From Polytrichum commune (taxonomy: Eukaryota > Streptophyta > Polytrichopsida > Polytrichales > Polytrichaceae): a DNA stretch of 64,000 nt. Made by a program: the position numbers and the translations under genes. Shown here piece after piece: positions 39,586 to 63,382 of this stretch. The DNA is taken from NCBI GenBank assembly GCA_950295325.1, contig OX485806.1, positions 22,756,001-22,820,000 on the forward strand, written 5' to 3'. Numbering within the stretch: the stretch's first letter is position 1; the number at the start of each line of letters is the position of its first letter. Under the pieces are notes generated by a model. That model was not told where the DNA came from. It saw only the letters and a program-made list of their open reading frames with translations, and searched no databases.

Positions 39586-40156
39586 GTTTAGGTCGACCGG
39601 TCCAAACCTCATAAGGGTCATACTGAAACCCTAACACACTGGGGTAGGGGTTTGGGTCGACCGACCCAAACCACACAAGGGTCAGACAGAACCCCTAACA
39701 CACTGGGGTAGGGGTTTGGGTCGACCGACCCAAACCTCACAAGGGTACATCCACCCACACGAGGTAGGGGTTTGGGTCGATCGACCCAAACCTCATAAGG
39801 GTAAAAAAAATTGAACACAGTGGGGTAGGGGTTTAGGTCGACCGACCCAAACCTCACAAGGGTACATCCACCCACACCAGGTATGGGTTTGGGTCGGTTG
39901 ACCCAAACCTCATAAGGGTAAAAAAAAAATTGAACACACTGGGGTAGGGGTTTGGGTCGACCGACCCAAACCTCACAAGGGTACATCCACCCACACCAGG
40001 TAGGGGTTTGGGTCGGTCGACCCAAACCTCATAAGGGTCAGAAAAAAACCCTAACACACTGGGGTTGGGGTTTGGGTCGACCGACCCAAACCTGTTAAGG
40101 GTCATACATAAACCCTTACACACTAGTGGACAGGTTTGGGTCGGTCGACCCAAACC
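39586..40156. repeat. Palindrome array, ten copies
   Basis: Ten copies of a 22 bp palindrome, arm GTTTGGGTCG, two variable bases, arm CGACCCAAAC, at a spacing of about 57-64 bp. The centres seen are AC, AT and GT. Spacers alternate between two types: AAGGGTCA...CCCTAACACACTGGGG and AAGGGTACATCCACCCACAC. The first copy is the most degenerate. The array lies in the leader or upstream region of the minus-strand DUF7869-like gene. Confidence 0.9.
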
Positions 40157-40293
40157 TCATAGGGTCAGACTCAAAACCCGCCAACACTAGTGGAAAGGTG
40201 AAGGTTCGCCCAAGTACACCACAAAATCCGGCGTATAATGCGGCAGATATTGCGTGGTGTGGTGAATTTGAGCTCATTGCAAACTTCACGGTG

Positions 40294-40357
40294 GGCTTGC
40301 ATGCTGTGGGTAGGTGCTCATGAACTTGCATGCTGTGGATAAGTGCTCATGAACGGC
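40294..40357. repeat. 31 bp tandem duplication
   Basis: Two copies of TTGCATGCTGTGG...GTGCTCATGAAC, differing at two positions, followed by an inverted GCAGCATGC word. They sit between the palindrome array and the TATA box. Confidence 0.7.
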
Positions 40358-40460
40358 AGCATGCACGAACCTTGAAGTACAGCTCCTACTAAGAGTTCTC
40401 TCTACGAATTAGGCAGCGGGAGAAGAGAAAAAAAGGACCAACTTCTGGGAGGTGCGCCCC

Positions 40461-40468
40461 TTTATACT
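40461..40468 (-). promoter_or_regulatory. Probable TATA box of the DUF7869-like gene
   Basis: The minus strand reads GGATAGTATAAAGGGG. Transcription from about 40430 would place the palindrome array in the 5' leader or a leader intron, the same arrangement as in the ParB-like gene on the other strand. Confidence 0.4.
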
Positions 40469-40599
40469 ATCCACCTCCGCTTCCCAGACTTTGTCATTGG
40501 ATGCCTTCCCCGCCTTCTTCTCTTGCAAAGGTTATTTCAAACCTCCTGACAGCATTCCCCGTTTTCTGTTTATAGTAGAAAAATGCGCATCTATGAATG

Positions 40600-41065
40600 C
40601 CCCTCTGATACCCCAGACATCATATGACTTAGTCTATGTTATTTAATCTATTTTTTTTTGTTTTGTGTGGATATGACATACGCCATTGGGAGGAAGGGTG
40701 GCGGCCACATTAATTTTTTCAAGTTCATCACGGCATATTTTAACCAATATGTAGACCCAAACACAACTCCATTCAATGCTTTCAAGTGTAAACCTATTTA
40801 GGTGGGGTTTGGGCCATTTGGAGGCTGCAATTATGAGAGAGTTTCCAAGGCTTGAGGCCATTGTCATGATGAATAGAATTATTTATTTGTCTCCACTAAA
40901 CCCTAAACCCTAGAACATTGCTCTATTATCTCGTATGCAAGTGTGGGAATGACGAACACGTTGTGGACGTTGTTAAGGGGATACTAACTACCAATGTCCC
41001 TTTTTAGTTCAATCTTTTAATGTTACTTGAATCCATCATCAAGTTCACTTCAAGTTTACTAATGT
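40600..41065. other. AT-rich spacer
   Basis: No gene seen. A short telomere-like CTAAACCCTAAACCCTAG occurs at 40896-40911. Confidence 0.4.
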
Positions 41066-41068
41066 GTG

Positions 41069-41913
41069 TGAGCAAAACATCCAAAATTGGACCCTAAACC
41101 CTTATAACATCCACAACATGAAATACATATTGACTAAATACAAAACCAATTAGGATATCCTGTTTAAACGTCCCATATAGCATATTCACATGATCAAGAT
41201 TGTATTTACTATGACCTTCCGATTAGACTCTTCTTCATATTATGCAAACAATATATGTTATATCTTCCTCCATTATCTAATACACGTGGAGAGAACAATG
41301 AACAACAACATGATTGCTTGAATGGCTTCATTTCATGTTGTGCTTCTCCGATTAACTTTTGCATCACATTCCATATATTCAATACATCATGAACCATGGT
41401 TTATTAGCGACTATGTGATTCCCTAAAGTGAGCAAAACATCCAAAGTTGCACCCCTAACCCCTATTAACATCCACAACATTTCATGTTATTTGAATAAAC
41501 ACAAGAGCAATCAATATATCGCGTTGAAACGTCTCAAATAACAAATTAACATAATCAAGATCGTCTTTACTATAACCTTCCTATAAGACTCTTCTCACCA
41601 GTAAGACAATGTTATACATTGACATTGGATAGATTAATATGTTATAACCCTATCTCCTATCTCCTAAACCCTAAACCCTAAACACCAAATGTAGTTGTGG
41701 TTCACTGATGCCCCCATATACAAACAACATCTATTTTATCTTGCGCCATCATCTAATATACATGAAGGGAGCATGTATAACAACATGATTGCTTGAATGG
41801 CTCCATTTGATGTTCTGCTTCTCGGATTTACTCTTATATCACGATCTAATATAATATATTAAATATATCGTGAACCATGGTTTATTGGCCACTCTGCAAT
41901 TCATCAAAGTCAC
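41069..41913. repeat. Tandem duplication, about 360-480 bp
   Basis: Copy 1 (41069-41431) and copy 2 (41432-41913) share GAGCAAAACATCCAAA, CATCCACAACAT, AACAACATGATTGCTTGAAT and TGAACCATGGTTTATT in order. Copy 2 is longer because of an insertion around 41600-41710 that includes a telomere-like tract. Confidence 0.7.
41663..41683. repeat. Interstitial telomere-like tract
   Basis: Three consecutive CCTAAAC units, the Arabidopsis-type telomere repeat of land plants, inside the second copy of the duplication. Confidence 0.7.
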
Positions 41914-42078
41914 AATATCAGGGATGTACTTAAAACTTGAGCATGTTAGCGTTTTCAAATAAGGCTCGTGCATTTCAAAACCCTTACAAAATGCAGTTGG
42001 GGAATGTATTCATTTAATAGGCTCCACACTCAAGTATTCTAAATTGTTCCACATGTTAGGGGGTGTTGGTAGACTTTT

Positions 42079-42345: not shown

Positions 42346-42361
42346 TTAGTGTACTCCAGAG

Positions 42362-42478: not shown

Positions 42479-44408
42479 GAATGAGAGGTGCACTTGTGCA
42501 CTTCAGAATTATGTCTTGCTATAACTTTTTACCGACATTATCGTTTTTTACGAACTAAGTCATATCATAATTGTTCGTGTGCATACTACCTAGTTATGTT
42601 ATTTGGATGAAAAAATACTTTCTATTAAATGTTACAGAAATGTGTAACTCCGCATGTTATGCCACACTAATTAGAGAAAATAGTCTAGTGGATTAGGAAA
42701 TGATCACAAGCACAAGGCATTGAAAACTTGAGAAACTTGTACAAAAGCTTTGGTGGGGTGCGAGGTGGGGGTGGGGGGCATTTTATACATCATAGTAGAG
42801 TTATACATGAAGTCTTGGATCAAACTTAGGTTTGAGAATATAACCATAAAGTCATCCAATTATTTCAAGGGCTTAGAACCAATTTTAAAGCAGGACCACA
42901 ACAACATAGTCTAATGTTTGGGTCGTCCTACCTAAACCATCCCAAATTAACGAATATAGTGATTAATACAAATGCAGCCTAAAAAATAAGTGACTTAGCA
43001 TGTGAGCCAAATCCCCCTCACCCTTCAATTGCGTCCTAGTCCAGGTGAGGGTTCATGAGTCACACTCGAGTTAACAAGTCACAATTGCAAACAAGGGAGA
43101 GATGGGGAGAAGTGGTGTGTATAACACCCTTTTCTTTCTTTTCTTTATTAATCTTTCAAGCATTCACAAACACTTGAGTTGTAGCAAAGTTCCGCGTGCA
43201 CACCCAACCTCCTAACACCTCCTCCTACATCTACTCGCCTTAACTCTATGTATCAACCTGGTGACTGCCTAATCAATTGATCCTAACTAAGTACTGCATT
43301 AGTCACCCTGGAGTTGCCCCTAATGCAGCCTTTGGCCTCTTCTCCCACCAAAGATTTGTTCCCTTGCCTCCTAGCTGCCCCCGGCTCAAAACACTCCAGC
43401 TGTAATTCCCTGCATCGGCACAAAGGTGAGGGTGCAAAGCCTGGCGCCCTCTACCACGTCACGCCCTACTTACACCTCGTTAGTTGACCTCAACCAGAAC
43501 CTGCCCCATCGGTGACAACAGAAGGTGGGAAAATGCTCCCACCAGGAAAAAACCAAAAGGGCAGATTAATTCATCTCACCCATCATTCTACCCCAGGGTC
43601 GGCCCAATCCACCGCTTCTGGACCCCTCGCAAGAGCGCATAGCTGAGCATCAGCACGGGAGTCCGATCTTTGATCCTCCTCAATTCGCAATGACTGCACA
43701 GGTCTTTCTCGCCTGTCCCTGACCTTGTTTTGTTGCAGTACCGGTTGCAATTCGAGTCCACACCCCGTGTTGATAACAACTCACGACCGGATCATGTGCA
43801 TGTAGCTGTGCTCAGAGCACTCTCACAAGCCCGTCCTGCTTCCTCTTCTCCTTGTGCGGCTTGAAGGACCATGTTGTCATGTCCCACTCTGTGGTGCTGC
43901 TGTCAACATCGTGGCTGCACCCTCCTCATTACCACTATGCCCTCTAGAAGCTTGTGAGCCGAACAGTGAGCCTTGTTGGTAGATGAAGCGACCTGCGTCT
44001 AATGAGAGGAATCCGATTAAAGACAGCAGACCCTTAACATCCCTGGCTGCCCTTAGGGGAGTTGACTGAATAAGGTATGAGTCGTCAATGCAATTGTGAA
44101 TGGTTGCTTGTTGTGGGACTAAAGCCGCGCGCTGTCCGCCACACCCAAGGGTATCTCCTGCACTTCCTCTCCGGTCCCAGTTCGAGGGACTTCCCCGAAT
44201 GCAGACCACAGAATCCACCTAGTTACACACATCCAATCACCATTGTCGCTCGCTCCTCGCCAGTGATCCCTCCTCTTTACTTCAATCGCCCATTACTTCG
44301 TGCTTGCTCCCTTAGCAAGGGAGGCCGATGCCTGATGTGCAATGAACGTGGGTAAGTGGCTTCGGTGATCCACTTAGTGACGATCTGTGCATCGGTGCTT
44401 GCAGTTGG

Positions 44409-45212: not shown

Positions 45213-45299
45213 GACCTTTTCCCTTGGCCTCTCCCTCTTGCAACCCCACTTCCTTTTTCTTCCATTGACTTCTTCTCCCCCTAGCCTCATAGATAAATA

Positions 45300-47426: not shown

Positions 47427-47528
47427 GTATTGTGTTATGTTTCTTAATTCTTAGTGTTGTAGCATACACAACGCATAAGCATTGTTTATGCTACGTGCAA
47501 ACTTTTTAAATATATTAGTAAAAAACAC

Positions 47529-47970
47529 TTTGGGGAGACGACCCAAACAAGGCTGCTGTTTGGGTCGATCGACCCAAACAAAGGCTGCTGTTTGGGTCGC
47601 TCGACCCAAACAAAGGCTGCTGTTTGGGTCGCTCGACCCAAACAAAGGCTGCTGTTTGGGTCGCTCGACCCAAACAAAGGCTGCTGTTTGGGTCACTCGA
47701 CCCAAACAAAGGCAGACGTTTGAAACCCTCCACCCAAACAAAGGCTGATGTTTGGGTTGCTCGACCCAAACACAGTCTTCTAAACCCTAAACTCATAAAG
47801 AAATCCATGATGTTAGATACAATATAAAATACAAATCCACCCAAAACTAAATAATCTGATGTAAGCATACAAATGATGTTCACATATAACAATACAAACT
47901 AGGGTCCTCTCATTCTTGGGTCTCTGGACGCAAACAAGGGCTAATGTTTGGGTTGCTCGACCCAAACACA
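47529..47970. repeat. Palindrome array in leader intron 1
   Basis: Eight to nine copies of the 22 bp palindrome, most with centre CT and one with AT. Five are separated by AAAGGCTGCT; two decayed copies and one isolated copy at 47948-47970 follow. The array lies in intron 1 (47427-48210), which ends TTCCTTGCAG directly before the ATG. Confidence 0.9.
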
Positions 47971-48210
47971 GTCTTCTAATTATAAACCCATCAAACAATC
48001 TATGATGTTAGATACAATATAAAATGCAAGTCCACCCAAAAATAAAAATACAATATCACCATTAAATGATGTTCACATATAACAATACACAAACCAACAA
48101 AATACATGCGGCAATCTATTACATTTCAATTACATCAAGTGACTTCTATTCAGTTTGAAGAAGTTTGGGTCAACCGATCGAAACTAACATTGGGGCTTCA
48201 TTCCTTGCAG

Positions 48211-49536
48211 ATGGCCCCAAAGAAACGACCAGGCAAAAGGTGGTTCATGCTTGCGCCAGACATGATATGGCAAGAGCACGAAACACCGGAAGATGACTCC
48301 TACGTTCCTAAGGACGGGCTTGTCCTCGCGTGGTCTATCCAAGTGGTTAAGGGTTCGCAATACAAAATGATTTTTGTTGTGAAGGTTGGGACCGTGGAGA
48401 AGCACACATGGGCTACTCTTACGGGGTGGGAGGTGGCATTGGTTCAGTCTCTTGGAGACTACGTGGATGTCATCCTCGAGAACAACGCTGTCCAGAACGC
48501 GCATATGTTTATGCACCAGTTCTCCGAACCCTTTGACGCTATCTATGCAAAAGAAACATGTGTAGAACCAGACGTCATCAAACCGGAGTCCATATTCATC
48601 GATAACAGTACATCGAACACAAAGGTGTCGAGCCGATTCACGAAACTAAAGCATGCAATCAGTGTGCTCAACAAAGCCCTGCAGAGCAAAACCAAGTCTC
48701 AGCAACCCGTGAGGCGGAAAGCTACAACAGAGGAAGGTGCAGGGTCGTCAAGACCTCAATCGGTAAGGAAGCCGCGACCAGTACCGGCTGACTCGCGGAG
48801 GACCACTCCCTCACAAACACCGACGGATAGCGAGACGCCTACACCTTCTGGGAGCCGTCAAACAACTCCATCCAAGCGGGCGAGAGAGTCCTCTGTGATG
48901 ACTGACGAGCCAGTATCACCGGAGTTGCGCATGCCGAAGCCCGGCGAAGAGGTGGATGCAGGGGAGCTGCAGAAAATCGTGAACAATTTCACGACGAAAT
49001 GCTCCCACTGTTTTTTCATGGGCAGGGATTTCAAGTTCGACGTGAACATCAGCCAGTGCCATCTAGCGCCACCGGAGAAGTGTGTCTGGGCAAAGGAGGA
49101 CGCCTACGTTGACTGGATAATCGCGCAGATCGTTTGCGAGCAGTTTAAAGACGACAGGCAAATGATTGTAGTGATGCCACAGGGTCTCAAGAAAATGCCT
49201 ACACCTGAAATGTGGCCAACAATTCAGAAGGGCGATTTTTGGCTTATAGACGGCCAGCACAGCGTGGAGGCATCCAAGAAAATCCAACTCATGAATGAGT
49301 GGGATGATCCGAACAATCAGAAGGAGAAGCTAAAGGTTTGGAAGGCACTGGTGGTGTGGTCTGACAACGAGACCAAACTCAGCGACATCTGCCGGTACTT
49401 CAATATGGGAAACAAGAAGAGGGCCTACCAAACATCCTGGATAAGGAATATCATGGCCTCGCGGGAGGTGTGGGAGTTCTATGGTAGGCCTCCTAAGGAG
49501 AGGGAGAATGCGAAGGACAAGAATCCCAAGTGGGAG
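48211..49536 (+). CDS. ParB-like gene, first coding exon
   Basis: 442 codons from the ATG that is the first triplet after the acceptor TTCCTTGCAG (MAPKKRPGKRWFMLAPDMIW). Residues about 1-120 form an unknown globular domain. Residues about 150-260 are Ser/Thr/Pro-rich with basic patches. From about 265 a second domain has CSHCFFMG and, at 343-354, DFWLIDGQHSVEASKK, which matches the DGQHR-type motif of ParB/sulfiredoxin-fold proteins (nucleotide-binding nucleases or CTPases in bacteria), though the motif Arg is Ser here. The exon ends at TGGGAG-GTGAGT, phase 0. Function in plants is unknown. Confidence 0.7.
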
Positions 49537-49544
49537 GTGAGTAT

Positions 49545-49805
49545 TTTTTGGGTCGACCGACCCAAACACCTGGTGCAGCCTTGTTTATCTAGTTTGGGTC
49601 GCTCGACCCAAACAATTGTTGTAGTCTTGTGTTTTCTAGTTTGGATCGATCGACCCAAACAATTGTTGCAGTCTTGTGTTTTTTTAGTTTGGGTCGATCG
49701 ACCCAAACAATTGTTGCAGTCTTGTGTTTTTTTAGTTTGGATCGATCGACCCAATCAATTGTTGCAGTCTTGTGTTTTTTTAGTTTGGGTCGATCGACCC
49801 AAACT
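49545..49805. repeat. Palindrome array in intron 2
   Basis: Six copies in the intron 49537-49894, separated by about 36 bp spacers containing AATTGTTGCAGTCTTGTG. The centres are AC, CT and AT; two copies have GGAT in place of GGGT in one arm. Confidence 0.9.
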
Positions 49806-49894: not shown

Positions 49895-51226
49895 GATTTC
49901 AAATACCAAATGATCAACAAATTCTCCTCCATTGATAATTCGAGCCACAAGCAGAAGAAATACAGCGACCTCAAGGGGGAGATTTACTTGATTACAGCAT
50001 CGGACTCAGTTTGGAGGAAGTGGAAAACCGTGTTTGAAAAGCACGAGACGGGGGATTTGATCGATCCCGACACTGGCATTTATTTCAGCCAAACCTCGCG
50101 CTTCAAGCAGATGAAGCCTCTCGTGAGAGAGTTTTTTAGAACTCTTCAAGGGCTGTCAGAGACGGAGGTGGAGAAAGCGGCATCGCACATCCTGCACGTG
50201 GCACCCACGGCGAAGAGGTGCTGGGTGCACCCGAAGATTGTCTTCCAAAAACCAAAATCTTTCGTTCCTTCATGCTACACCATGAAGGAATGGACGGACA
50301 ACAGGAAAAAGAAGACGACTATCGTGCAGGAGCTGCATAAATTGGTGCCAGAGAGGAATATTGTCGTGGACGGCGAGGTTCATGAGGCTAACTGGAGATC
50401 ATTCAAAGTTGAATATAAGTTCACCAGTGCCTCCATGGCGGCTCTAATAAGGGAAGCGGGGGACGACTTCTTGCGGGCCAAGATGGTGAAGGGTGGGAAG
50501 AACCGGGCGCTTCCGGATCACACAGCGCGTGCGTTCTCGAACTTCATCAAGGAGAAGAAGATTGTCCAGTTTGAAGGGGAAACGTACTTCAACATTGTCA
50601 CCGTCGACCCTTTGAAAATTCAGGGTTGGCCAGGTCAAGACGCCAGAATGGCGATAAGGACAAAAGCAAGGGACCGCTTTCCTTTTGGGATGATTGATTT
50701 CAGGAATATTCCTGGAAGCTCATTTGAGGGCACGATGAGCACCCTCTTCTACGATCCCTTCCTCTCTAAGTTCGTCGATTATGTAAGCCCTAAGTTCAGG
50801 GAGGTAGATATCTGGCTTTGGATAGTCAAGGATAGGAGGGCGGAGCAGGTGTACGAGCTTGTCCGGAAACTGCAGCCGGAGTATGCAATCTCCAAGTCTC
50901 ACTACATCGCTGCACCGGCGGAGGGGGCTTACACGACGTTGAGGGACAAGAAGACCAAGTTCGTCAACGTTTTGTGTTTGTACTTCGTGTACAAAGCGGA
51001 GTTGTTGAAGCTGCCGAACCACCCTATATCCCGGATGGACAAACTCTTCCAAGTTCTAGAAGGGTTGGGTGCCAACAAGTGCCTCTACGACGAGGCTAAA
51101 TACGCAAACTATCCCGTAGATGAGCTGCGTATGGAATTTTACGTCAGAATGATGAGGACGCTGACGAGGAGAGGGGACTGCATCTTCAACGTCTTCGGAG
51201 GCTCGAAACCTATCTATGCTGCCATG
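49895..51226 (+). CDS. ParB-like gene, second coding exon
   Basis: 444 codons in phase 0, from DFKYQMINKFSS after the acceptor CACGTCCAG to ...KPIYAAM at the donor ATG-GTAAGT. The exon is uninterrupted and well balanced, with no known domain. It contains aromatic-rich segments (WLWIVKDRRAEQVYELVRKL) and basic patches. A segment of about 25 codons upstream of 49895 is also open but lies inside the intron. Together with the first exon this is nearly 890 codons without a stop, which shows recent selective constraint or recent insertion of the retroelement farther on. Confidence 0.7.
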
Positions 51227-51249
51227 GTAAGTGATTTTCTATAGCTCGT

Positions 51250-51352
51250 GCGCAGTTTGGGTCGATCGACCCAAACTAGGGTCTTTGTTGGTTTGGGTCG
51301 ATCGACCCAAACTAGGCTCTTTGCAGGTTTGGGTCGATCGACCCAAACTAGA
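51250..51352. repeat. Palindrome array in intron 3
   Basis: Three copies, all with centre AT (perfect palindromes), spaced about 37 bp apart by TAGG(G/C)TCTTTG(T/C)..GG, in the 192 bp intron 51227-51418. Confidence 0.92.
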
Positions 51353-51418: not shown

Positions 51419-52785
51419 ATGTCGGGGCTGAGTATATACTCCTACATAGAGGATGGCGATCTGCCATTTTACAGGACGCAGAGATCGCTGGCGAAGAAGA
51501 TGGACATCCTCGATTGGATCCCGGGTAGCTACGTCGACGAGGTTGTTCAGGGGGGCGAAAACCCTCTTGATAGGGCGAGGCGGATCAACCTGGAAGAAAT
51601 GGCCATGAGGGCCACAACCCAAGTACCCGAACCTCTTGTCGGGTTGCATCCGGGCAATCCGTCCCGCACAGAAGGTGGCGAGGTCGAGGAGGAGGAGGAA
51701 GAAGAGGAGCACGAGGAGGCGGAGAAGGAAGGCGACGTCGAGGAAGGGGCAACGGGCTTCACGCAAGAATCCGAAGCCCCTCAACGGAAGAAGGCGATGC
51801 GGGCGGCAACCCCGCAGAGTAAGCTCGTGCCCGTCCTGACGGTGGACGATGCACGGGACATGTACTCTAGGGACGCCACCGCCACGTTCAGGGAGAGGAG
51901 GAAGTTAAAGGGGAAGAAGCTGTATGGCGACTACTCCGTGGAGGAGACCATTGCCATAAGCAGCGAGGACGACGATGACATTGAGCTCGCCAAACGGCTA
52001 AAATCAGATCCCCCGTCCCCGACAGTGTTCGCTGGCATGGTTAGGGTGAAGCCCGAGGTCCTGACTGTGGAGGAGGCGAACGAGAAGATGAGGAGGGACG
52101 AGGAGCAGCGAGTCCGCCTGCAGAAGGCTGCCGCGGAAGAACCCTCAATGCGGAACGAGGTCGCAGAGCTGAGGGCTCTCCTGTTGGAGCAGGAGCGTCA
52201 AAGGGCGATGGTCCAACCTCCGTCCCACGCCGACTTGATATCACAAGTGATACAAGGAATGTGGGCGCAAGGTTTGGTGGTGGCTCCCTCCAGCTCCTTC
52301 CCGCACTTACCCCCCGGCTTCCCTGCGCAGAGCATCCCTCAGCAGCCTTTGCTGCAATCGTCTTTCAGCTTCCAGCACTTGATTCGGCCCCACCAAGTTC
52401 CGTACGCGCCGGTCCAGCAAGTGGATGACCCCAACATCTGGCGCGTCTCTGGAGCCTCCTCCCCTTTGGGCCCTCCACCACTTCGGCCCCCCATAGTCAT
52501 GGCGCCCCCCCCCACCAATCGGACGACCCCAGGATGTTTGGGTCGACCGACCCAAACCCACCATCCACTATAGTGTCCGAAGGGCCCTCTCCAGATGCAG
52601 GACAGTTTGGGTCGGGCGACCCAAACCCCGTTGTAGCGCAGTCCTCCCTTGACCAACATGGGTGTCAACTAGACACGGCCATGCTAGATATTGAAGGCCT
52701 GCAAGGGCCTGGTGATACCTCTACTCCTAACCAAATCGATGAACCCATGCATGATGCACATGCGGAGATTGGTTTAGGACAAGGG
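51419..52785 (+). CDS. ParB-like gene, third coding exon, part before the insertion
   Basis: Starts MSGLSIYSYIEDGD after the acceptor GGATTGTGTAG, phase 0. It has an acidic run (VEEEEEEEEHEEAEKE), a charged coiled-coil-like region (EEANEKMRRDEEQRVRLQKAA) and a Pro-rich tail. At 52505-52513 a C9 tract ends the frame soon after (stop near 52571). One more C would lead into the next frame, which continues coding-like to 52785 and through the retroelement to 63221. Two copies of the palindrome (about 52538-52557 and 52604-52625) are read as FGSTDPN and FGSGDPN in that frame. It is thus broken by a probable one-base loss and by the LTR element. Confidence 0.6.
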
Positions 52786-53759
52786 TGTCGCGCACCTCTC
52801 CATAAGGAGTGCCCGAAACACCATGGGCACAAGGGGGACCCCGGAGTGACACCCGGGACTTGTGGCGCCGTTGGTGAGAGGGCCCAAGTGATCCTAGTGT
52901 GGGTGAGGGCCCCGGGCGTTGGGAACGCCTCCCACCCACAAAGACTAGGAGGCATGAGGGTGAGGCCATGAGCTATGCGTAGCTCATGGCGTGGTGATTC
53001 TAGAATGCTCAAGATCACCTCAATCGGAGGTGTGAGCTAGGAGTTATGGCCATTTGAGTGGGGTGCTGTCCCGGGACAGCGCCCTGGTACAGCAGTGCCT
53101 GGGAGTGATTCCCGGGACTGCCAAGGTTCAAACAGGCATAACTTCCTCAAGCCTTGCCCGAATGGGGCAAGCAAGGAGTCCATCGGCATCTACGTGAAGC
53201 GTAGATGCGGATGGAGTGGTTGGTTGTTATGATCAGACATCATACAAGGAAGTTATGATGGTCTGAAGCTGCTGGGGGGGTTCTAGGCCCAGCAGCTAAG
53301 GGAAAATGTCCACTTGGCCCCAACTCTTGGTAGAGAGACAAGAGGTTGGTTGGCGGTGGGGTAGGGGCTCCGTGTAGAGTCCTAGAGGCTTATATGGGTG
53401 AGGTGGTGTGGCCTCACCCACCCGAGGCCGAACGGCACGGCCTCCATGGGCATTGGCCCATTGTGAGGACATAGTTGCCTAGTATGGTTCGGGTTGTTGT
53501 AGTGTTGCTCCGGCAACGCGATGATCAACATAGGATTGGACTTCCATGGATGGAAGTCCACATTGGGGAAATGGGTTACCGATTAAGGGGTGAGCCCCGA
53601 AAGCAAAGTAGGAGGGTTGGTTCCCTCCTATGAACTATTGGTCCGGGGTAAGAGGAGCTATCCATTAGCATGGCGGAATGCGAAGGGTTAGCGACTCGTA
53701 ACCTTTGCTAGAATTGAAAATTGGCAAGATTATTAAGGGACCTAGCAAGGGTTGCGACA
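52786..53759 (+). repeat. 5' LTR of the chromovirus-type element
   Basis: 974 bp. It contains several short palindromes (CTGTCCCGGGACAG, CATCTACG...CGTAGATG, GGACTTCCATGGATGGAAGTCC-type) and a TATA-like GGCTTATATGGG near 53388. It has the same length as the 3' LTR, and I saw no difference in a by-eye comparison. Confidence 0.9.
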
Positions 53760-53761
53760 CT

Positions 53762-53773
53762 TGGTATCAGAGC
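53762..53773 (+). promoter_or_regulatory. Primer-binding site, initiator Met-tRNA
   Basis: TGGTATCAGAGC, two bases after the 5' LTR, is the standard complement of the 3' end of plant initiator tRNA-Met. Confidence 0.9.
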
Positions 53774-53810
53774 AGGGTTCCAATATTTGAGCTAGCACTT
53801 TGAGGGAGAC

Positions 53811-54310
53811 ATGGCTATCAAACCTGAGGGTTATTACGGTGAGCCGGGGTTTCCAAAAGGTTGTGAGGTTCAAATTGGAACAAAGATCATGTGTAAATGG
53901 AATTTGACCATACCATTAGTTCTCATGACAATGGTGGGCATGATGGTGGATTCAGTAAGGAAAATGGTGGAGTCCTTTGAAAGGGCTCCCGCACACCTCA
54001 AAAAAACATTTGGGGCCTAGAATACCGAATGCACCCAAAACCTTGGAGGGCATTAATGTTGGATTGAAATTCCAATTCGAAATGCTTAGAAGGTGGTGAT
54101 GTTGAAATGAACTTGGGGCACATGAGGCACGCGGGGTCTCTTAAGGTGTATATGTGCGAATTTCACACCCAAATGAATGGTACATCTAGGATGGACGAGC
54201 TTTCTAAAAAATGCATCGTTTTAGGTGGGTTTCAAAAGCGGGTAGTGAAAACCATGTTCAGGACCCCAAAGCTTCTTGAGGACGTAGTGCGAATCATAAA
54301 GATTTGAAGA
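53811..54310 (+). pseudogene. Gag remnant, first copy
   Basis: Starts MAIKPEGYYGEPGFPKG. A second piece (54107-54307) has SLKVYMCEFHTQMNGTSRMDELSKK, the conserved gag capsid pattern of chromoviruses. Stops and frameshifts separate the pieces. The following 54400-54620 region contains about three copies of a 65 bp repeat with GCCGCGGACGGAATGT, where zinc knuckles would be expected. Confidence 0.55.
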
Positions 54311-54689
54311 GCATTGAAGCCGATGGTCCTAAGAAGAAGTTGGGCGGCACATCACCACAAAGTGGGTTTAGCCGAAAGAGGTCCCAAGGAAATGAGTGCA
54401 AGTAGTTTGGCCCATTATGCCAAGGCAAATCATGCTAGCTCGTGCCGCGGACGGAATGTGAGAAGGTGGCTTGGTGGTACCAAGCTAGATCATATTTGTG
54501 CCACGGACGGAGTGTTAAAAGTTGGCCTTGCGGACCAAGCCAAACTCATGGTGTTGCCGAGGACCGAATGTAAGACGATGGCATTGTGGCCAAGGCTAGT
54601 AGCCTTTAGCCAAGGCCAAGTCTTTTGTACCTTGAGGCTCAAATGAATGGGAGAAATGTCTCATGGGTTGACAAAGAGGCAAGCCATTT

Positions 54690-55117
54690 CTTCTTGAGCC
54701 CAAAACTCACAAGGGAGTTGGGGCTTGCCGATTGATAGAGCGGGCAAGTCCACCAAGGTGCGGTTTGGAAAGGGCGAATCGCATGAGACAAAGGAGGCCG
54801 CGATGCATGTAACCTTTCAATGTGGGACATTGGATTTTTGTCAAAATTTCTCATCATGTGAAATAGATGAAATGCATGTCATTGTGAAGGCCGCCTTCTT
54901 TGAAACTCACATGATAGATGTGAGGTGCAAGCCGGTGTGCTTGCGGTGCATTATGATGTGTCATAATGGCAAAGAATTGAAGTTCAAATTAACAATGACT
55001 CCTATGGTAGGAGGACCTAAGTTGAATTTGGTCTTAATGGACCGAATTAAAAAAAAAAAAAAACATAATAGTCGTGGTTCAATTGGAGCAACTCCAAGGA
55101 ACGTATGGGGAGGCTAG
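54690..55117 (+). pseudogene. Protease-region remnant, first copy
   Basis: The frame 54725-55117 (FGKGESHETKEAAMHVTFQCGTLDFCQNF) resembles the region from the protease to the start of RT in chromoviruses. It ends in a poly-A tract (55050-55063) and GATPRNVWGG. The RT core that should follow, with its YxDD box, is absent; the sequence jumps to the start of the RNase H part within about 300 bp. Confidence 0.5.
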
Positions 55118-55429
55118 GAAAGATGGGCCTCCCCCAAACAACATTGGTGTGATGTTGGTGAAATACAAGGATGTATTCACCAATGTGTTGCCCAAAAAAA
55201 AATTACCGCCAAGAAGTGAAAAATCACTTTGCTCAACGAGAGATTGAGCTCTTGAGGTATGTGGTGATAAATGAAGTTGGTGGACGAACATGAAGAATGT
55301 CAAGGCAATCCAAAAGGAGAATTGGCCCTTGATTCAAAAGGGCTTAGGTCATTTGTTGGCCTAGCCAATTAGTACCACAACTTCATTCGAGAGTTTTCTA
55401 AGGTTGCTAGGACCTTATTCAACTTATTG

Positions 55430-56196
55430 AGGAAAATGGCTATCCCAAGAGTGGGATGAGCCTTGTCACCAAGCCTTTGGGGGGCTAAAAAACAAGTTCT
55501 CTTCGCCGCCCGTGCTTAAGTTCGCGGACTTTGACAAACCTTTTGAGGTGCATACGGGGGCGAGTAACTTTACCATTGGCGGATGTTGATCCAAGATGGA
55601 TGCCCATTGCATATGGGAGCATTAAGCTTAAAGGTTGTCAAACCTTGTGCGACTTGTGAAAGAAATGGCTATCCCAAGAGTGGGATGAGCCTTGCCACCA
55701 AGTCTTTGAGAAGCTTAAGAGTAAGTTCTCTTCGCCGCCCGTGCTCAAGTTCGCGGAGTTTGACAAACCTCTTGAGGTGCATACGGGGACGAGTGACTTT
55801 ACCATTGGCGGATGTTGAGGCAAGATGGATGGCCATGGCATATGAGAGCATGAAGCTCGATGGTTGTCCCACCTTGTGCGACTTGTGGAAGAAATGGCTA
55901 TCCCAAGAGTGGGATGATGTTTGTCACGAGTCTTTGGGGAGCTTAACACCAAGTTCTCTTCGCCGCCCGTGCTCAAGTTCGCGGAGTTTGACAAACCTTT
56001 CGAGGTGCATACGGGGGTGAGTGCCTTTGCCAATGGTGGATTATGTGTAAGATGGATGGCCATTGCATATGGGAGCATAAAGCTCGATGGTTGTCAAAGA
56101 AGACAACCAACTCATGACAAAGAACTTCTTTGCCGTAGTGCATTGCTTGAAGATGTGGCGACATTATATGGGGTCGCACAAAGCAAAGGTCTACAT
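55430..56196 (+). repeat. RNase H fragment in three tandem copies, first set
   Basis: Three copies of a 228 bp unit starting near 55435, 55667 and 55897, each encoding a WLSQEWD...FSSPPVLKFAEFDKPFEVHTG segment and then ...IAYGSIKLDGCQ. The third copy extends toward AKVY and is cut by the middle LTR at 56197. The same triplication recurs in the second internal region, so it predates the joining. Confidence 0.75.
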
Positions 56197-57192
56197 TGTC
56201 GCGCACCTCTCCATGAGGAGTGCCCGAAACACCATGGGCACAAGGGGGACCCCGGAGTGACACCCGGGACTTGTGGCGCCGTTGGTGAGAGGGCCCAAGT
56301 GATCCTAGTGTGGGTGAGGTCCCCGGGCGTTGGGAACGCCTCCCATCCACGAAGACTAGGAGGCACAAGGGTAAGGCCATGAGCTATGCGTAGCTCATGG
56401 CGTGGTGATTCTAGAATGCTCAAGATCACCTCAATCGGAGGTGTGAGCTAGGAGTTATGGCCATTTGAGTGGGGTGCTGTCCCGGGACAGCGCCCTGGTA
56501 CAGCAGTGCCTGGGAGTGATTCCCGGGACTGCCAAGGTTCAAACAGGCATAACTTCGTCACCACTTGCCCGAATGGGGCAAGTGAGGAGTCCATCGGCAT
56601 CTACGTGAAGCGTAGATGAAGATGGAGTGGTTGGTTGCTGGAATCAGACATCATACAAGGAAGTTATGATGGTCTGAAGCTGCTGGGGGCTTCTAGGCCC
56701 CGCGGCTAAGGGAAAATGTCCACTTGGCCCCAACTCTTGGTAGAGAGACAAGAGGTTGGTTGACGGTGGGGTAGGGGCCCCGCGTAGAGTCCTAGAGGCT
56801 TATATGGGTGAGGTGGTGTGGCCTCACCCACCCGAGGCCGAACGGCACGGCCTCCATGGGCATTGGCCTAATGTGAGGCCATAGTTGCCTAGTATGGTTC
56901 GGGTTGTTGTAGTGTTGCTCCGGCAACGCGATGATCAACATAAGATGGGACTTCCATGGATGGAAGTCCACATCTAAGGATTGGTTACCGATTAAAGGGG
57001 TTGGTTAGCGATTGAAGGGGTGAGTCCCGAAAGCAAAGTAGGAGGGTTGGTTCCCCTCCTATGAACTATAAGGTCCGGGGTGAGAGGAGCTAACCATTAG
57101 CATGGCGGTATGCGAATGGTTAGCGCTCGTAACCTTTGCTAGGAAATGAAAATTGGCAAGATGGTCAAGGAGGGCTAGCAAGGGTTGCGACA
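56197..57192 (+). repeat. Middle LTR
   Basis: 996 bp, same ends (TGTCGC, GCGACA), but diverged from the outer LTRs by substitutions and small insertions (an extra GGTTAGCGATTGAAGGGG-type stretch near 57005). It follows the RNase H remnant at GTCTACAT without a spacer or polypurine tract, so it is the 5' LTR of a second copy. Confidence 0.9.
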
Positions 57193-57194
57193 CG

Positions 57195-57206
57195 TGGTAT
57201 CAGAGC
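57195..57206 (+). promoter_or_regulatory. Second Met-tRNA primer-binding site
   Basis: TGGTATCAGAGC after the middle LTR, as at 53762. Confidence 0.88.
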
Positions 57207-57243
57207 AGGGTTCCAAATTTTGAGCTCGCACTTTGAGGGAAAC

Positions 57244-58140
57244 ATGACTATCAAAAAAATGCGGGTTGTGATGGTGAGCCCGTGGTTTCCAAAAGGTTGT
57301 GAGGCTTAAATTGGAACAAGGATCATGTGCAAGTGGAGTTTGACCATACCATTGGTTCTAATGACAATGGTGGGCACTAAGGTGGATTCGGTAAGGAAAA
57401 TGAAGGAGTGCTTTGAAAAGGGCTCCCACAAACCTCCAAAAGTATTTGGGGCCTAGAATACCGAATGCACCTAAAACCTTGGAGGGTATTAATTTTGGAT
57501 TGAAATTCCAATTTGAAATGCTTAGAAGGTGGTGATGTTGGAATTGGTGCAAATGAGGCACCCGGGGCCTCTTAAGGCCTATGTGCGCTATTCAAACGCA
57601 CAAGTGAAAGATACACCTAAAATGGACGACCTTGTGAGACATGCATCGTTTTAGGTGGGAATTCAAAAGCGGGTGGTGAATTCCATGTCCGAGTCCCCAA
57701 AGCTTCTTGAGGACGTATCGGGAATCTTTAAGATTTGAAGAACATTGAAGTCGATGGTCCTAAAAAGAAGTTCGACGGCGTACCACCATGAAGTGGGTTT
57801 AGCCGAAAAAGGTCTCAAGGAAATGGGCATAAGTAGTGTGGCCGTTATACCAAGGCAAATCATGCTCGTTCCGCGGACACAATGTGGGAAGGTGGCTTTG
57901 TGGTACCAAGCCAAATCATATTTGTGCTGTATGCGGAATGTTAGAAGTTGGTTTTATGCTACTAATCCATATAATGTTTGGGCCGCGGACAGAATGTTAC
58001 AATGTGAATTGGTGGTACCAAGCTAGAACATATTTGTGCCGCGGACGGGATGTTAAAAGTTGGCTTTGCGGACCAAGCCAAAACATATTGTTGCCGTGGA
58101 CCGAATGTTAGACTATGGCTTTGTGGCCAAGGCTAATAGC
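57244..58140 (+). pseudogene. Gag remnant and 65 bp repeats, second copy
   Basis: Parallel to 53811-54620 with many differences: the gag frame is broken by several stops, and the 65 bp GCCGCGGAC...AATGTTA repeat has about five copies (57840-58130), against three in the first copy. Confidence 0.55.
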
Positions 58141-58259
58141 CTTAAGCCAAGGCCAAGTCTTTTATACCTTGAGGCTCAAGTAATCGGAGATATGTCTCAT
58201 GAGTTGACAAAGAGGCAATGGACTCTTTCATGAGCCCAAAGCTCATAAGGGGGTTGGGG

Positions 58260-58910
58260 CTTGTCGACGCATAGAGCGGGCAAGCCCACCAAGGTGCGGT
58301 TTGCAAAGGGCGAACCGCATGAAGCAAAGGAAGCCGCGATGCATGTAACCTTTCAATGTGGGACATTGAATTTTGTCAAAATTTCACACCATTTGAAATT
58401 AATAAGGTGCATGTCATTGTAAAGGTCACCTTCTTTGAAACTCACATGATAGATGTGAGGCCGAAGCCGGTGTGCTTGCGGTGCATTATGATGTGTCATA
58501 ATGACAAGGAGATGAAGTTCAAATTGACAAGGAGTCCTATGGTAGGAGGATCCAAGTTGAATTTGGTCTTAATGGACCAAATGCAAAATGGAAAACATAA
58601 TGGTTGGAGTTCAATTGGAGCAACTCCAAAGAACTTATGGGGAGGCTAGGAAAGATGGGCCTCCCCTAAACCATTTGGTGGGATGTTGGTGAGATACAAG
58701 GATGTATTCACCAATGTGTTGCCCAAAGAGTTACCGCCAAGGAGTGAAAAAAAAAAAAACTTGCTCAACAAGAGATTGAGTTCTTGAGGTATGTGATGAC
58801 AAAGGAAGTTGGTGGATGAACATGACAAATGCCAAGGCAATCCAAGAAGAGAATTGGCCCTTGACTCAAGAAAAGGGCTTAGGTCATTTGTTGGCCTAAC
58901 CAACTACTAC
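58260..58910 (+). pseudogene. Protease and RT-start remnant, second copy
   Basis: The frame 58356-58649 (FCQNFTPFEINKVHVIVKV...GATPKNLWGG) matches 54830-55117. A short RT-start piece follows (RYKDVFTNVLPKELPP), then the same RT-core deletion as in the first copy, then SFVGLTNYYHHFIYGFSKVARTL, the tail end of RT. Confidence 0.5.
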
Positions 58911-58964
58911 CACCACTTCATTTATGGTTTTTCTAAGGTTGCTAGAACCTTAGTCAACATGTTG

Positions 58965-59730
58965 GAAAAAAATGGCTATCCCAAGAGTGGGATGAGCCTT
59001 GTCACCAAGCCTTTGGGGAGCTTAAGAAAAAATTCTCTTCACAAGATGTGGTTAAGTTTCGGGTTTTCATGAGCATGTTGAGGTGCACATGAAGGCAAAG
59101 GACTTTACCATTGGCGGATGTTGATCCAAGATGGAGGACCATTGCTTATGGGAGCATTAAGCTCCATGCTTGTAGAAGCTTGTCCAACTTGTGCAAGAAA
59201 TGGCTATCCCAAGAGTGGGATGAGCCTTGCCACCAAGTCTTTGAGGAGCTTAAGACCAAGTTCCTCTTTACCACCCGTGTTCAAGTTCGCGGAGCTTGAA
59301 AATCATTTTGAGGTGCATACGGGGGGCGAGGACTTTACCATTGGCGGATGTTGATGCAAGATGGATGGCCATTGCATACGAGAGCATGAAGCTCGATGGT
59401 TCGACTTGTGGAAGAAATGGCTATCCCAAGAGTGGGATGATGTTTGTCACGAATCTTTGGGGAGCTTAAGACCAAGTTCTCTTCGCCGCCTGTGCTCAAG
59501 TTCACGGAGCTTGACAAACCTTTTGAGGTGCATATGGGGGTGAATGATTTTGCCAATGGCGGATTGTTGATGTAAGATGGATGGCCATTGCATATTGGAG
59601 CATGAAGCTCGATGGTTGTCAAAGAAGACAACCAACTCATGCCAAAGAACTTCTTTGCGTAGTGTATTGCTTGAAGATGTGGCGACACTAGTTGGGGTCG
59701 CACAAAGCAAAGGTCTACATGGACAATGTG
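58965..59730 (+). repeat. RNase H fragment in three tandem copies, second set
   Basis: Copies start near 58970, 59197 and 59415. They are more diverged than in the first set. The third runs on into GGTCTACATGGACAATGTG (end of RNase H), the part missing from the first internal region. Confidence 0.7.
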
Positions 59731-59739
59731 TCCTAAAAG

Positions 59740-61000
59740 TATTTTGACATACAAGCATAAGTGAACGCCAAGTCATTGCGGAGGCATGATAGTTTGGCGC
59801 TTATGAAGGTGGATTTGATCCACAAACCGGACCGTGGAAATGTGGTGCCGGATGCGCGAAGTAGACGGGAAGAGTTCCAAGCAATGAGAACCATCCAAAC
59901 CTTGTGGCTAATGTGTGCCGGCAAAGGAAACTTGTGATGCAAGATACGGGAGGGGTAAATTAACTACCCCAAAGCACAAAAGCTTTTAGGTGAGCTTCGC
60001 AAGAGCAAGGTGCTCAAAGAGGTTAAGTTGGTGGACGGATTGTTCAAGTGCAAACAAAGTCGGGTATATGTGCCACAAGGCAAGTTGAGGCTATCGGTTT
60101 TGAAGGAGGAATATGATAGTCCTATTGCCGGCCATAGAGGAGAAAGAAAAAGCCGCCATAGAATGGTGTCAAAGAGGTACCATTGGCGGTGCATAAAGGA
60201 AGATATAGCCCACTTTGTGAAGGCTTGAATCAAAGTGCCAAGTGAACCGAGCCTCTTACCAAAAGCAAGGCGGCTTCTTGCAACCGTTGCCTATCCCGTT
60301 GGCGCCATGGCATGGTATGTGCATGGACTTGATCACAAGTTTGCCGGAGTCACATGGGTATGATGCCATCTTGTTGATGGTAGAGCGGTTTGCCAAGTGG
60401 GCACACATGGTGCCGATTGTGGGAACCGCCACCGCGTTGGAGATCGCATAGCCTTTTCTCAAAGGATGGTTGAGGCACCACGGGTTGCCAAGAGTGATTG
60501 TGTGGGATCAAGATCCAAAGTTCACAAGTGCATTTTCAATGCATTTCTCTAAGGAGGTTGTATTGAAACTAAGGTTTAGCACGGCCGTGTATTCCCAAAT
60601 GGATGGGAAAACAAAGCGTGTGAATGGAGACTTGAAGCAATACTTGAGGAACTTGGTGGGGGCGGACCAAGGAGATTGGGCGGACTATGTGGGTCGAGCG
60701 GAGTGTAATTGCAATGTAGCCACGCACTTGGCTACCAAGGGGTGGTCTTTGGTGGTGGCTTATGGAGTGGATGCGCTCCAACCTATTAACCTAGCTCTCG
60801 AGGGGGCACATTCAACACTAGAGTTCAACCAAGATGGTGAGGACTTGGCCAAGAAGCGTGAACAAGTCTTGGAGATGACCAAGTTGTTGGTGGAGAAAGC
60901 CCGAAGGTGCTACGGAGTGCAAGTCAATGCTGGAAGACGCGAAGTGGAGAATGAGGTGGGCCAAAAGGCGTTGTTGAATGTGAACAACTTCACTTAGCCG
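59740..61000 (+). pseudogene. Integrase remnant
   Basis: The zinc-binding part is damaged (EEYDSPIAGHRG, then a stop in the Cys pair). The core reads WHGMCMDLITSLPES (first Asp), VWDQDPKFTS (second Asp) and QMDGKTKRVNGDL, where the usual Glu of GQTERVN is Lys. With the third catalytic residue lost, and a TAG at 60449-60451, it cannot be active. Confidence 0.7.
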
Positions 61001-61079
61001 GAAGGCCTCACTCCAAAGTTCATGTCCAAAATTGGAGCTTCGTTTCCCATTGTGGAACAAGTGGTCAAGGACATATATA

Positions 61080-61430
61080 AGTTGGAATTACCGCCGGAGA
61101 TCAAAGTGCATCCGACATTTCATGTTTCATTACGAAAGTCATTTTAGGACGACACCTTGTGGCCCGATCACAAGCAAGTGATTAGGCCACCTCCCGACCT
61201 TGTGGACATCATTTGGAACATGAGGTAAGAGGGCATCCTCAAGTGTAGGAAGCCCAAGTGAAAAGGAAAGAAAAAGTACAAAGGAATACTTGGTGAAATG
61301 GTGAGGATACCATGAGAAAGAAACCGCTTGGGTGGCGGCAAGAGACATGGTCAACACCAATGAATTGGTGAAGCACTTTGAAGAAACTAAGGCTAGACAT
61401 TCCAATAAAAAGAAGCGTAGGCATTGATGA
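61080..61430 (+). pseudogene. Chromodomain remnant
   Basis: After the integrase C-terminal signature (HPTFHVSLRKSF), pieces in changing frames read EGILKCRKPK, KYKEYLVKW-like, and TAWVAARDMVNTNELVKHF-like, the chromodomain of chromovirus integrases. Several stops break it. The domain normally guides insertion to particular chromatin. Confidence 0.5.
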
Positions 61431-62241
61431 GGACATCAATCTCCTTTAGTGGGGGAGAGACTCTAGTAGCAAACATAGCTTCGAGGTTAATTCCTCCACA
61501 ACATGCACTTGTTCTTTGGCTTGAGGGAATAAAGTCCAAACTTTAGTGGTGCAAAGAGAAAAGTATGAGATGAGGTCCTAGTCTTGTACTTGTGTTTGGT
61601 TAATGGAAGAGGGGGAATAGACATGCCAAACTAGGTTGGGTAAGCCGAGTAATTGGGGGCCATGGCTTGGAGGGGCCTTGGATAAAACCAAGAAACTTCT
61701 TAGTGGTGGGCTTGTCCGGGCGGGGACAAGGTGATGGCGCGTGCTCATAAAAGTGCTACCCGCGAGCTAACGAGAGTTGGCGCATGGGAGTCATGAACCC
61801 ATGTCTCGAAAGAGCAAAGTGGGAACCGAGTCGGGCGGGACTTGGCATCACCCCCGTGCGATCGAGGCGTGGCTTAACAATGGAAAGCCATCTCGGAGTT
61901 GCAACCGAGACAACTTAGTGGAAGCGTTGAGGTCTCGCCTAGATGTGTCATGTTAGGCTAGTGGAGCCTAACGGGGGAGGCCCCAAAGGAGGGGCAACCC
62001 AAGTGAGTCCCAAAGTAGGTGGGTCTAGTATAGGTTAGGTCCTTGGATGAGAGATCCAAGGTCGCTAACGGACCACCTAGGAACGACACCTTTGGGACCA
62101 TGCCAAATTTGAAGATGCATTGTGGGGGTCGCGCCCTAAGGTAAACACAATGCCGCACCATAGAGGATGGCAACTTGAGAATTGGTGTGCCGACTACGAG
62201 TATAGTCGATGAGGGCATCGACTCCGTTTGGTGGGGGTGAG
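61430..62241 (+). other. 3' untranslated part and polypurine tract of the element
   Basis: Non-coding. GGTGGGGGTGAG directly before the 3' LTR (62230-62241) serves as the polypurine tract. No ORF is supported. Confidence 0.6.
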
Positions 62242-63215
62242 TGTCGCGCACCTCTCCATAAGGAGTGCCCGAAACACCATGGGCACAAGGGGGACCCCGG
62301 AGTGACACCCGGGACTTGTGGCGCCGTTGGTGAGAGGGCCCAAGTGATCCTAGTGTGGGTGAGGGCCCCGGGCGTTGGGAACGCCTCCCACCCACAAAGA
62401 CTAGGAGGCATGAGGGTGAGGCCATGAGCTATGCGTAGCTCATGGCGTGGTGATTCTAGAATGCTCAAGATCACCTCAATCGGAGGTGTGAGCTAGGAGT
62501 TATGGCCATTTGAGTGGGGTGCTGTCCCGGGACAGCGCCCTGGTACAGCAGTGCCTGGGAGTGATTCCCGGGACTGCCAAGGTTCAAACAGGCATAACTT
62601 CCTCAAGCCTTGCCCGAATGGGGCAAGCAAGGAGTCCATCGGCATCTACGTGAAGCGTAGATGCGGATGGAGTGGTTGGTTGTTATGATCAGACATCATA
62701 CAAGGAAGTTATGATGGTCTGAAGCTGCTGGGGGGGTTCTAGGCCCAGCAGCTAAGGGAAAATGTCCACTTGGCCCCAACTCTTGGTAGAGAGACAAGAG
62801 GTTGGTTGGCGGTGGGGTAGGGGCTCCGTGTAGAGTCCTAGAGGCTTATATGGGTGAGGTGGTGTGGCCTCACCCACCCGAGGCCGAACGGCACGGCCTC
62901 CATGGGCATTGGCCCATTGTGAGGACATAGTTGCCTAGTATGGTTCGGGTTGTTGTAGTGTTGCTCCGGCAACGCGATGATCAACATAGGATTGGACTTC
63001 CATGGATGGAAGTCCACATTGGGGAAATGGGTTACCGATTAAGGGGTGAGCCCCGAAAGCAAAGTAGGAGGGTTGGTTCCCTCCTATGAACTATTGGTCC
63101 GGGGTAAGAGGAGCTATCCATTAGCATGGCGGAATGCGAAGGGTTAGCGACTCGTAACCTTTGCTAGAATTGAAAATTGGCAAGATTATTAAGGGACCTA
63201 GCAAGGGTTGCGACA
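62242..63215 (+). repeat. 3' LTR of the chromovirus-type element
   Basis: 974 bp, apparently identical to the 5' LTR in a by-eye comparison. It is followed by the target duplication AAGGG. Confidence 0.9.
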
Positions 63216-63220
63216 AAGGG

Positions 63221-63340
63221 CCTGATGCCGATCGTTTGCAGGAGAAGGTTCCTGACGTCGTCGGAGAAGGCGGTGGCGAGAGAGGCGGGGCAGCAGGGAC
63301 GGTGGAGGCTTCTACATCGTCGAGACATGACCAAGGCGAG
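63221..63340 (+). CDS. ParB-like gene, third coding exon, part after the insertion
   Basis: Reads PDADRLQEKVPDVVGEG and on to HDQGE in the frame that ends at 52785, then a donor GAG-GTAATA at 63340/63341, phase 0. The join across the retroelement keeps both frame and amino-acid character (Gly/Glu-rich linker). Confidence 0.6.
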
Positions 63341-63360
63341 GTAATACACTGAGCCCTCCC

Positions 63361-63382
63361 AGTTTGGGTCGACCGACCCAAA
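63361..63382. repeat. Single palindrome in intron 4
   Basis: One copy with centre AC in the intron 63341-63827. The rest of the intron has C-rich runs and no other repeat. Confidence 0.9.

Follow-up and report, generated by a model that had tools for sequence, protein, structure and literature searches.

A repeated 22-bp palindrome carried by two differently built DNA transposons of Polytrichum commune, a possible binding site for a symmetric dimer

Genes and palindromes of the locus

The stretch of DNA analyzed here (the window) comprises 64,000 nucleotides of the Polytrichum commune genome (assembly GCA_950295325.1, contig OX485806.1, positions 22,756,001 to 22,820,000). It contains a DUF7869 gene on the minus strand, a ParB-like gene on the plus strand and, in and around both, a repeated palindrome, GTTTGGGTCG-NN-CGACCCAAAC, made of two 10-bp arms and a free 2-bp center (22 bp in all). 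An initial annotation, made from the letters alone, had described these kept arms and the variable center as a feature found only in and near the two genes, a restriction that holds within the window and fails genome-wide (see below). Allowing up to three mismatches over the 20 arm bases and leaving the center unscored, we counted 31 copies, 20 of them perfect, while five Markov-simulated windows held neither a copy nor a perfect 10-2-10 palindrome of any sequence. The only other perfect 10-2-10 palindromes of the window are three of one shared sequence, inside the long terminal repeats (LTRs) of a retrotransposon. Center bases were AT, CT, AC, GT, GG or, in the copy at 42916, TC. Conservation has sharp edges at bases 1 and 22, and the flanking bases are mixed.

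The palindromes, which have no strand of their own, form tandem arrays, and the observation that each array has its own spacer stood up to closer analysis, with periods of about 56 to 64, 32, 48 and 36 bp. Ten copies lie upstream of the DUF7869 gene, in its leader region as had been noted (39586..40155, spacing about 56 to 64 bp), and a lone copy with two mismatches, absent from the initial list, lies between the two genes (42916..42937). The leader and intron 1 of the ParB-like gene (47539..48184, mostly 32-bp spacing) hold eight copies at up to three mismatches, seven at 47558-47967 and one at 48163-48184, as well as degenerate copies at 47718 and 47914 (five mismatches each) and a half copy at 47539. 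Six more are found in intron 2 (49546..49804), the first beginning at intron base 10, three in intron 3 (51255..51348, 36-bp spacing) and a single one in intron 4 (63362..63383). Each of the four introns, as modeled, thus has at least one copy, in agreement with the initial annotation. The two remaining copies are coding and lie in exon 4, at 52536..52557 (degenerate in the relative P0003, which reads FGTSSSN) and 52605..52626 (FGSTDPN in P0003). An Rfam scan of positions 38000-64000 gave no RNA family at gathering scores.

The body of the DUF7869 gene, a presumed transposase, occupies 34867..37806 on the minus strand. Pfam PF25273 matched its open reading frame (ORF) at 35923-36378 with an E value of 1e-31 and the ORF at 34864-35922 below the cutoff (E=0.001). 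The splice sites of the ParB-like gene, all of whose exons are on the plus strand, were placed from open frames and relatives rather than from RNA. Exon 2 (48211..49536, with a probable acceptor at 48210) carries the motif FWLIDGQHSVEASKKI, and its profile search matched 49 proteins. Exon 3 (49895..51226), modeled from the open frame, contains an FNVFGGSK motif that may point to a DNA-methyltransferase origin; the matches of this exon in PDB and Pfam were weak and to unrelated entries. Exon 4 (51419..52785) is split by an LTR retrotransposon and resumes at 63216-63340. Its open frame shifts at a C run near 52510, and the frame downstream matches that of P0003, from which the window copy departs at this run (52505-52520). 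Considering both the frame change and the insertion, the window copy of the gene is probably dead. The start of the next exon, at 63828..64000 on the plus strand, reads FLVLDLNGVL, presumably a stretch typical of HAD/FCP1-like phosphatases, and the element runs past the window end.

The label "ParB-like" comes from the FWLIDGQHSVEASKKI stretch, and a D-G-x-H motif is encoded by both kinds of transposon described below. The PHROG ParB family matched the D-G-Q-H stretch weakly (E=0.12 for the window protein; P0056, a distant relative, reached 0.28), and the window protein scored better against a PHROG family of unknown function (0.057).

The inserted retrotransposon (52786..63215, plus strand, target duplication AAGGG) is outside the palindrome system. 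Its outer LTRs share an exact match of 975 bases, which indicates a very recent insertion, and a third, diverged LTR lies within it at 56197-57192. Elsewhere in the window, a minus-strand ORF of 708 amino acids (8695-10821) matches protein kinases weakly (E=3e-6, below the cutoff), and two G/C-rich minisatellites, at 3977-4773 and 10913-11597, lie about 7 kb apart, the latter being in part an inverted version of the former.

A large transposon carries both genes

Comparison of the palindrome clusters of the genome (copies A, B, C, H and G and the window copy, W) revealed that both window genes are part of one DNA transposon, here family 1, with 28-bp terminal inverted repeats (TIRs) and 4-bp target duplications. 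The window copy starts at 34333 with the left TIR, AACACTATATTCGTTAAATTGAGACTTT (34333..34360, plus strand), preceded by CTAT and identical to the left ends of A, B and C; no right TIR could be located within 20 kb beyond the window at up to six mismatches. Both TIRs are present in A, B, C, G and H, the right one of B with three mismatches, and all five copies have matching 4-bp flanks, AAGT (A), CCTT (B), TTAT/ATAA (C), GAAG (H) and CACT (G), so that family 1 has the TIRs and target-site duplications of a cut-and-paste TIR transposon. Genome-wide, the 28-bp TIR occurs at 589 + 595 places at up to two mismatches. The layout of DUF7869 gene, ParB-like gene, last exon and palindromes is shared by A, B, C, H and W. 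Lengths are 18.1 kb (A), 18.6 kb (B), 17.0 kb (C) and 14.4 kb (H), some with nested insertions, and with exon limits set by hand the elements hold 40 (A), 26 (B), 36 (C), 31 (W) and 31 (H) palindromes at up to three mismatches. A deletion across exons 3 and 4 made intron 3 of H unscorable.

Copy G is a 4.8-kb derivative in which the TIRs, the matching flanks and a portion of the DUF7869 gene remain. The sequences in it closest to the palindrome have four mismatches and correspond to a subterminal cousin repeat. Of 814 candidates, 40 matches were scored, and none of these had the junction of G a second time; G may therefore be a later deletion and is no proof that the palindromes are dispensable. 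The cousin, GTTTAGGTAGGGCAATCCAAAC, is a degenerate relative of the palindrome contained in three subterminal repeats of about 100 bp at the right ends of A, B and H (e.g., C1:1193161 and 1193261); these could possibly be transposase sites or an ancestral form of the palindrome. A related terminal repeat with three mismatches, followed by TATA and with no palindrome nearby, is found at window positions 26944-26971 and a similar one at C1:639070; the former could be the terminus of a further, related element.

Genome distribution and a second transposon

The 408-Mb genome (64 contigs) contains 9231 perfect palindromes, and the reversed-sequence control contained none. Symmetric arm variants of the 22-mer are GTTTCGGTCG.. 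and GTTTGGGCCG..; in this genome the compensated C5-G18 variant, GTTTCGGTCGNNCGACCGAAAC, had no perfect copy. The sites are clustered, and several clusters repeat the layout of the window. We placed 100 of the 9231 sites (on C1, up to 2.16 Mb), and all of them fell in regions of two transposon kinds: 36 in A, 16 in B, 25 in C, 12 in D, 10 in E and 1 in F, where the D and F intervals are whole stretches of 30 and 10 kb. The whole-genome search proposed in the initial annotation therefore removed the restriction to two genes and replaced it, for the placed sites, by confinement to transposon regions. Since the two genes belong to one high-copy transposon, the palindrome is neither gene-specific, a reading ruled out by the 9231 copies, nor, as far as seen, mobile by itself, the 100 placed copies all lying inside larger transposons.

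Clusters D, E and F align with family 1 only through nested insertions and palindromes and represent a second transposon, family 2. Both ends were seen for copy E alone, which has 57-bp inverted ends (88%) and is bordered on each side by the 9-base flank AGTTGGCAT; D, broken by insertions, was assigned by homology to E and F. Mutator-like elements (MULEs) have target duplications of 8 to 11 bp, and E, a single copy, combines a duplication in this range with a long TIR. Its minus-strand gene differs from the DUF7869 gene, had no MULE match in Pfam and has a weak SWIM-like finger (E=0.075). The plus-strand gene encodes FFIWDGNHRFFAWKNYI, with the ParB-motif stretch FFIWDGNHRFFAW. In E, 12 palindromes lie in the leader of the plus-strand gene and 6 between two ORFs of the minus-strand gene, a gap that is probably an intron. 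The sites thus ride, mostly in noncoding DNA, on two transposons of different build, the first of which is large and very abundant.

Conservation and decay of the arms

Between copy A and copies B, C and W, the spacers of introns 2 and 3 are largely unrelated and differ in length, while the palindromes are the same. A similar picture emerges from exon 4, where a distance of 69 bp separates the two coding palindromes in each of the five copies. Between A and W the arms are identical at 40/40 bases and the surroundings at 124/191 (Fisher p=4e-7, with bases treated as independent). The pairs A-C (40/40 and 123/185) and H-W (40/40 and 123/191) behaved alike, and the second exon palindrome of B has one arm mismatch. 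This conservation acts at the DNA level, synonymous positions included.

The decay of the arms was followed in 220 copies (up to four mismatches) from A to F, H and W, 146 of them perfect. Among 127 changed pairs, 76 were one-sided and mispaired, 40 one-sided wobble, 8 two-sided and mispaired, and 3 two-sided and paired. The two-sided changes come mostly from the subterminal cousin repeat and not from the palindrome proper, and two of the three paired ones are homologous copies of that repeat. At pair 5-18 there were 13 half-changed copies (10 G-G and 3 C-C), an intermediate state toward the variant found in other lineages, and none with C-G. The changes at pairs 1 to 10, in the 206 copies with up to three mismatches, were 17, 3, 1, 1, 22, 1, 12, 6, 9 and 10. 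Positions 2 to 4 and 6 are nearly invariant; pair 5, which switches between lineages, is the most variable. The innermost pair, 10-13, changed in 10 of the 206 copies, close to the mean of 8.2 per pair.

Relatives and symmetric change between lineages

Three protein searches gave 98 relatives, mostly from metagenome sources and known as translations. Apparently they were predicted without introns, so many of them would read on into introns, shown translated. We searched these with a template in which the arm bases were fixed except for positions 5, 8, 15 and 18 and the center, positions that were loosened after the variants had been seen. It matched 64 times in 42 of the 98 proteins, within 2396 non-exon residues, against a mean of 0.02 and a maximum of 1 in 50 shuffles of these residues. 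Freeing one more pair each time added 0 to 2 matches, and none for pairs 2-21, 7-16 and 10-13.

Positions 5 and 18 are both readable in two of the three frames. Among the 30 readable matches, 23 had G5-C18, 4 had C or T at position 5 with G18, and 3 were mixed (2 G5-G18 and 1 C or T at position 5 with C18). The joint change had a Fisher p of 0.0026, or 0.0033 with one match per protein (22 matches), values uncorrected for relatedness. In P0010, FGPVGPN and FGPTGPN were read as T8-A15 turned into C8-G15, with both sides changed; in P0013, FRSIARN was read as mispaired at 8-15, and in P0047, VWVDRPKLFRSVDRN as an unchanged copy beside a C5-G18 copy. In trees of 33 exon-2 and 37 exon-3 rows (drawn from the 98 relatives, window included), left-arm variants fall mostly in clades. 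Mixed neighbors were P0031 (type II) inside a type IV clade, P0014 (I) by P0015 (II) and P0023 (I) by P0030 (III). The palindrome types, as read from the translated introns, hence fall mostly into protein clades, though with few independent switches.

These translations suggest that between lineages the arms change together. Selection on pairing, as proposed in the initial annotation, receives a mixed answer: within this genome 3 of the 127 changed pairs are two-sided and paired, which speaks against it, while between lineages four joint changes stand against three mixed and 23 unchanged matches.

Interpretation and rival explanations

We consider it about an even bet that the palindromes are double-stranded DNA sites for a symmetric dimer, probably the ParB-motif protein, that keeps the transposon unsilenced in the way VANC does. 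The transposon and its sites are well supported, and the retention of the arms against a diverging background and the symmetric change between lineages were observed directly. Together with the free center and the location in transposons, these features of the arms fit a dimer-bound site in double-stranded DNA. Riding on a 14-to-19-kb TIR transposon and on a second, apparently MULE-type transposon of the same genome, the sites would be read at both 10-bp arms by a symmetric dimer that ignores the 2-bp center. The first candidate binder is the product of the ParB-motif gene, since both transposon kinds carry one, and each transposon would most likely be served by its own. Dense sites in the leader, the introns and one exon may let this protein coat the element, keeping up its expression or blocking silencing. 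Of the readings offered in the initial annotation, a protein-binding site is hence the one favored, a palindrome mobile by itself is rejected on the 100 placed copies, and an intron RNA hairpin is disfavored.

Several results weigh against the dimer-site reading. The plus-strand ParB-like protein had no Pfam match above the cutoff and no ParB among its PDB matches, and its likeness to ParB appears at the level of the motif, with the PHROG E values of 0.12 and 0.28 given above. The ParB-motif proteins of families 1 and 2 align over the 23 residues of the motif only (hhalign probability 0.4%, E value 0.15), so common descent is not established. Arm changes are uncompensated within this genome, and two palindromes per family-1 element are coding. 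In the relatives, the commonest frame (VWVDRPK type) has bases 15 and 18 of the right arm at third codon positions and hides them, leaving few matches in which a symmetric change can be observed directly. The binder, the binding as a dimer and the anti-silencing purpose are what we infer, and the binder could be a host factor.

That last option is the strongest rival, unlikely in our estimate but carrying real weight: a host protein (a transcription factor, insulator or silencing factor) would bind the site, which two unrelated transposons accumulated independently. One palindrome is indeed common to two transposon kinds of the same genome, and the one variant of other lineages that was counted, GTTTCGGTCGNNCGACCGAAAC, is missing genome-wide, as expected if the factor were host-specific. 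However, 100 of the 100 placed sites (C1 to 2.16 Mb, with 9131 sites unplaced and host genes unmapped) lie in transposon regions, and each transposon kind has a ParB-motif gene of its own. Improbable, by comparison, is a neutral palindromic minisatellite homogenized by slippage and hairpin-templated correction. Template switching can change both arms together, and tandem arrays with array-specific spacers would be its product, but 22 bp are kept amid unrelated spacers, the exon arms are identical at 40/40 bases against 65% around them, and one-arm mutations are seldom corrected here.

Hairpins in the pre-mRNA that regulate splicing or export are a very improbable explanation of the palindromes, despite a copy in each modeled intron of the window ParB-like gene and a constant placement in relatives: of 22 whose intron-2 copy is read from the donor side, 15 have the first copy beginning at base 9 or 10 of the intron. 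The same site is also found in the coding exon 4 and ahead of the DUF7869 gene, and the G10-C13 pair, although unable to form across a loop of 2 bases, is as well kept as the others and has no variant in the relatives, which disfavors an RNA hairpin. Furthermore, mispairing changes on one side (76) are at least as common as wobble ones (40), and the similar numbers of C>T (44) and G>A (35) give no sign of selection on pairing in one RNA strand. Just as hard to credit are transposase sites needed in cis for transposition. Transposase-binding regions typically have symmetric repeated sites, and the right subterminal region has three repeats of about 100 bp with the degenerate cousin. Nevertheless, the palindromes lie deep inside the element, away from its ends, family 2 has the same palindrome with another minus-strand gene, and the palindrome-free 4.8-kb G has intact TIRs and matching flanks, although perhaps through later deletion. 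A viral origin was rejected, as neither the pattern nor the protein matched viral contigs, and window positions 47500-48210 and the exon-2 and exon-3 proteins matched no phage. Prokaryote contigs gave no match by pattern or protein, and P0056 had only weak, partial matches to phages and plasmids (best E value of 0.1).

A bolder extension of the dimer-site reading, which we regard as rather doubtful, is a portable eukaryotic module similar to ParB-parS, in which a ParB-family protein encoded by the transposon would load at the palindromes, spread over the element and exclude silencing, its gene and sites having moved between unrelated superfamilies and the site having been retuned symmetrically in each host lineage. 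If the dimer-site reading is true, anti-silencing or self-regulation of transposons via dense private sites is not peculiar to the VANDALs of Arabidopsis, other proteins evolved the same strategy, and unrelated transposons can share one site code. The 9231 sites and the symmetric swaps between lineages offer a natural system for tests of protein-site coevolution. Literature searches (the 10-mer, DUF7869 and related topics) gave no report of this system among the matches listed, which is no proof of absence in print, and no matching paper for DUF7869.

Comparison with known systems

Repeated palindromes in introns recall introner elements and palindromic microsatellites, but here the introns are those of a transposon gene, and further copies are found outside introns. 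Family 1 resembles Sola2 in its TIRs with 4-bp duplications, which Sola2 and other superfamilies have (PMC3627910). The agreement is in duplication length only, and the flanks AAGT, CCTT, TTAT (ATAA), CACT and GAAG are not all AT-only. Bacterial ParB-parS partition sites are palindromic and close to the ParB gene, much as the sites described here are near the gene of a ParB-motif protein; the site is longer here, the transposons are of eukaryote type, no ParA was noticed (though none was looked for), and the ParB homology is at the motif level.

The closest parallel is with VANC. VANDALs are MULEs, and family 2 here is of MULE type judging by the ends of copy E. An extra protein gene accompanies the presumed transposase in both family 1 and family 2, as in VANDALs. 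The VANC motif has 9 bases, occurs in tandem repeats and differs for VANC6 (PMC5735166, PMC10398659), and the chromatin immunoprecipitation signal of VANC is stronger in noncoding parts, i.e., introns, intergenic and terminal regions (PMC5735166). Both systems have a short motif tandemly repeated in introns and other noncoding DNA of a DNA transposon (PMC5735166, PMC10398659), and the motif varies between related elements in VANDALs and, as read from translated introns, apparently here too. They differ in that the site here is a two-armed palindrome of 22 bp and that of VANC a 9-base word; in the ParB-like motif of the candidate protein; in the sharing of one motif by two transposons of different build, where an anti-silencing role is putative; and in the two coding copies of each family-1 element, an exception to noncoding placement. 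Dense, mainly noncoding sites, tandem growth and a lineage-specific motif together point to a system that would work like VANC without being identified as VANC.

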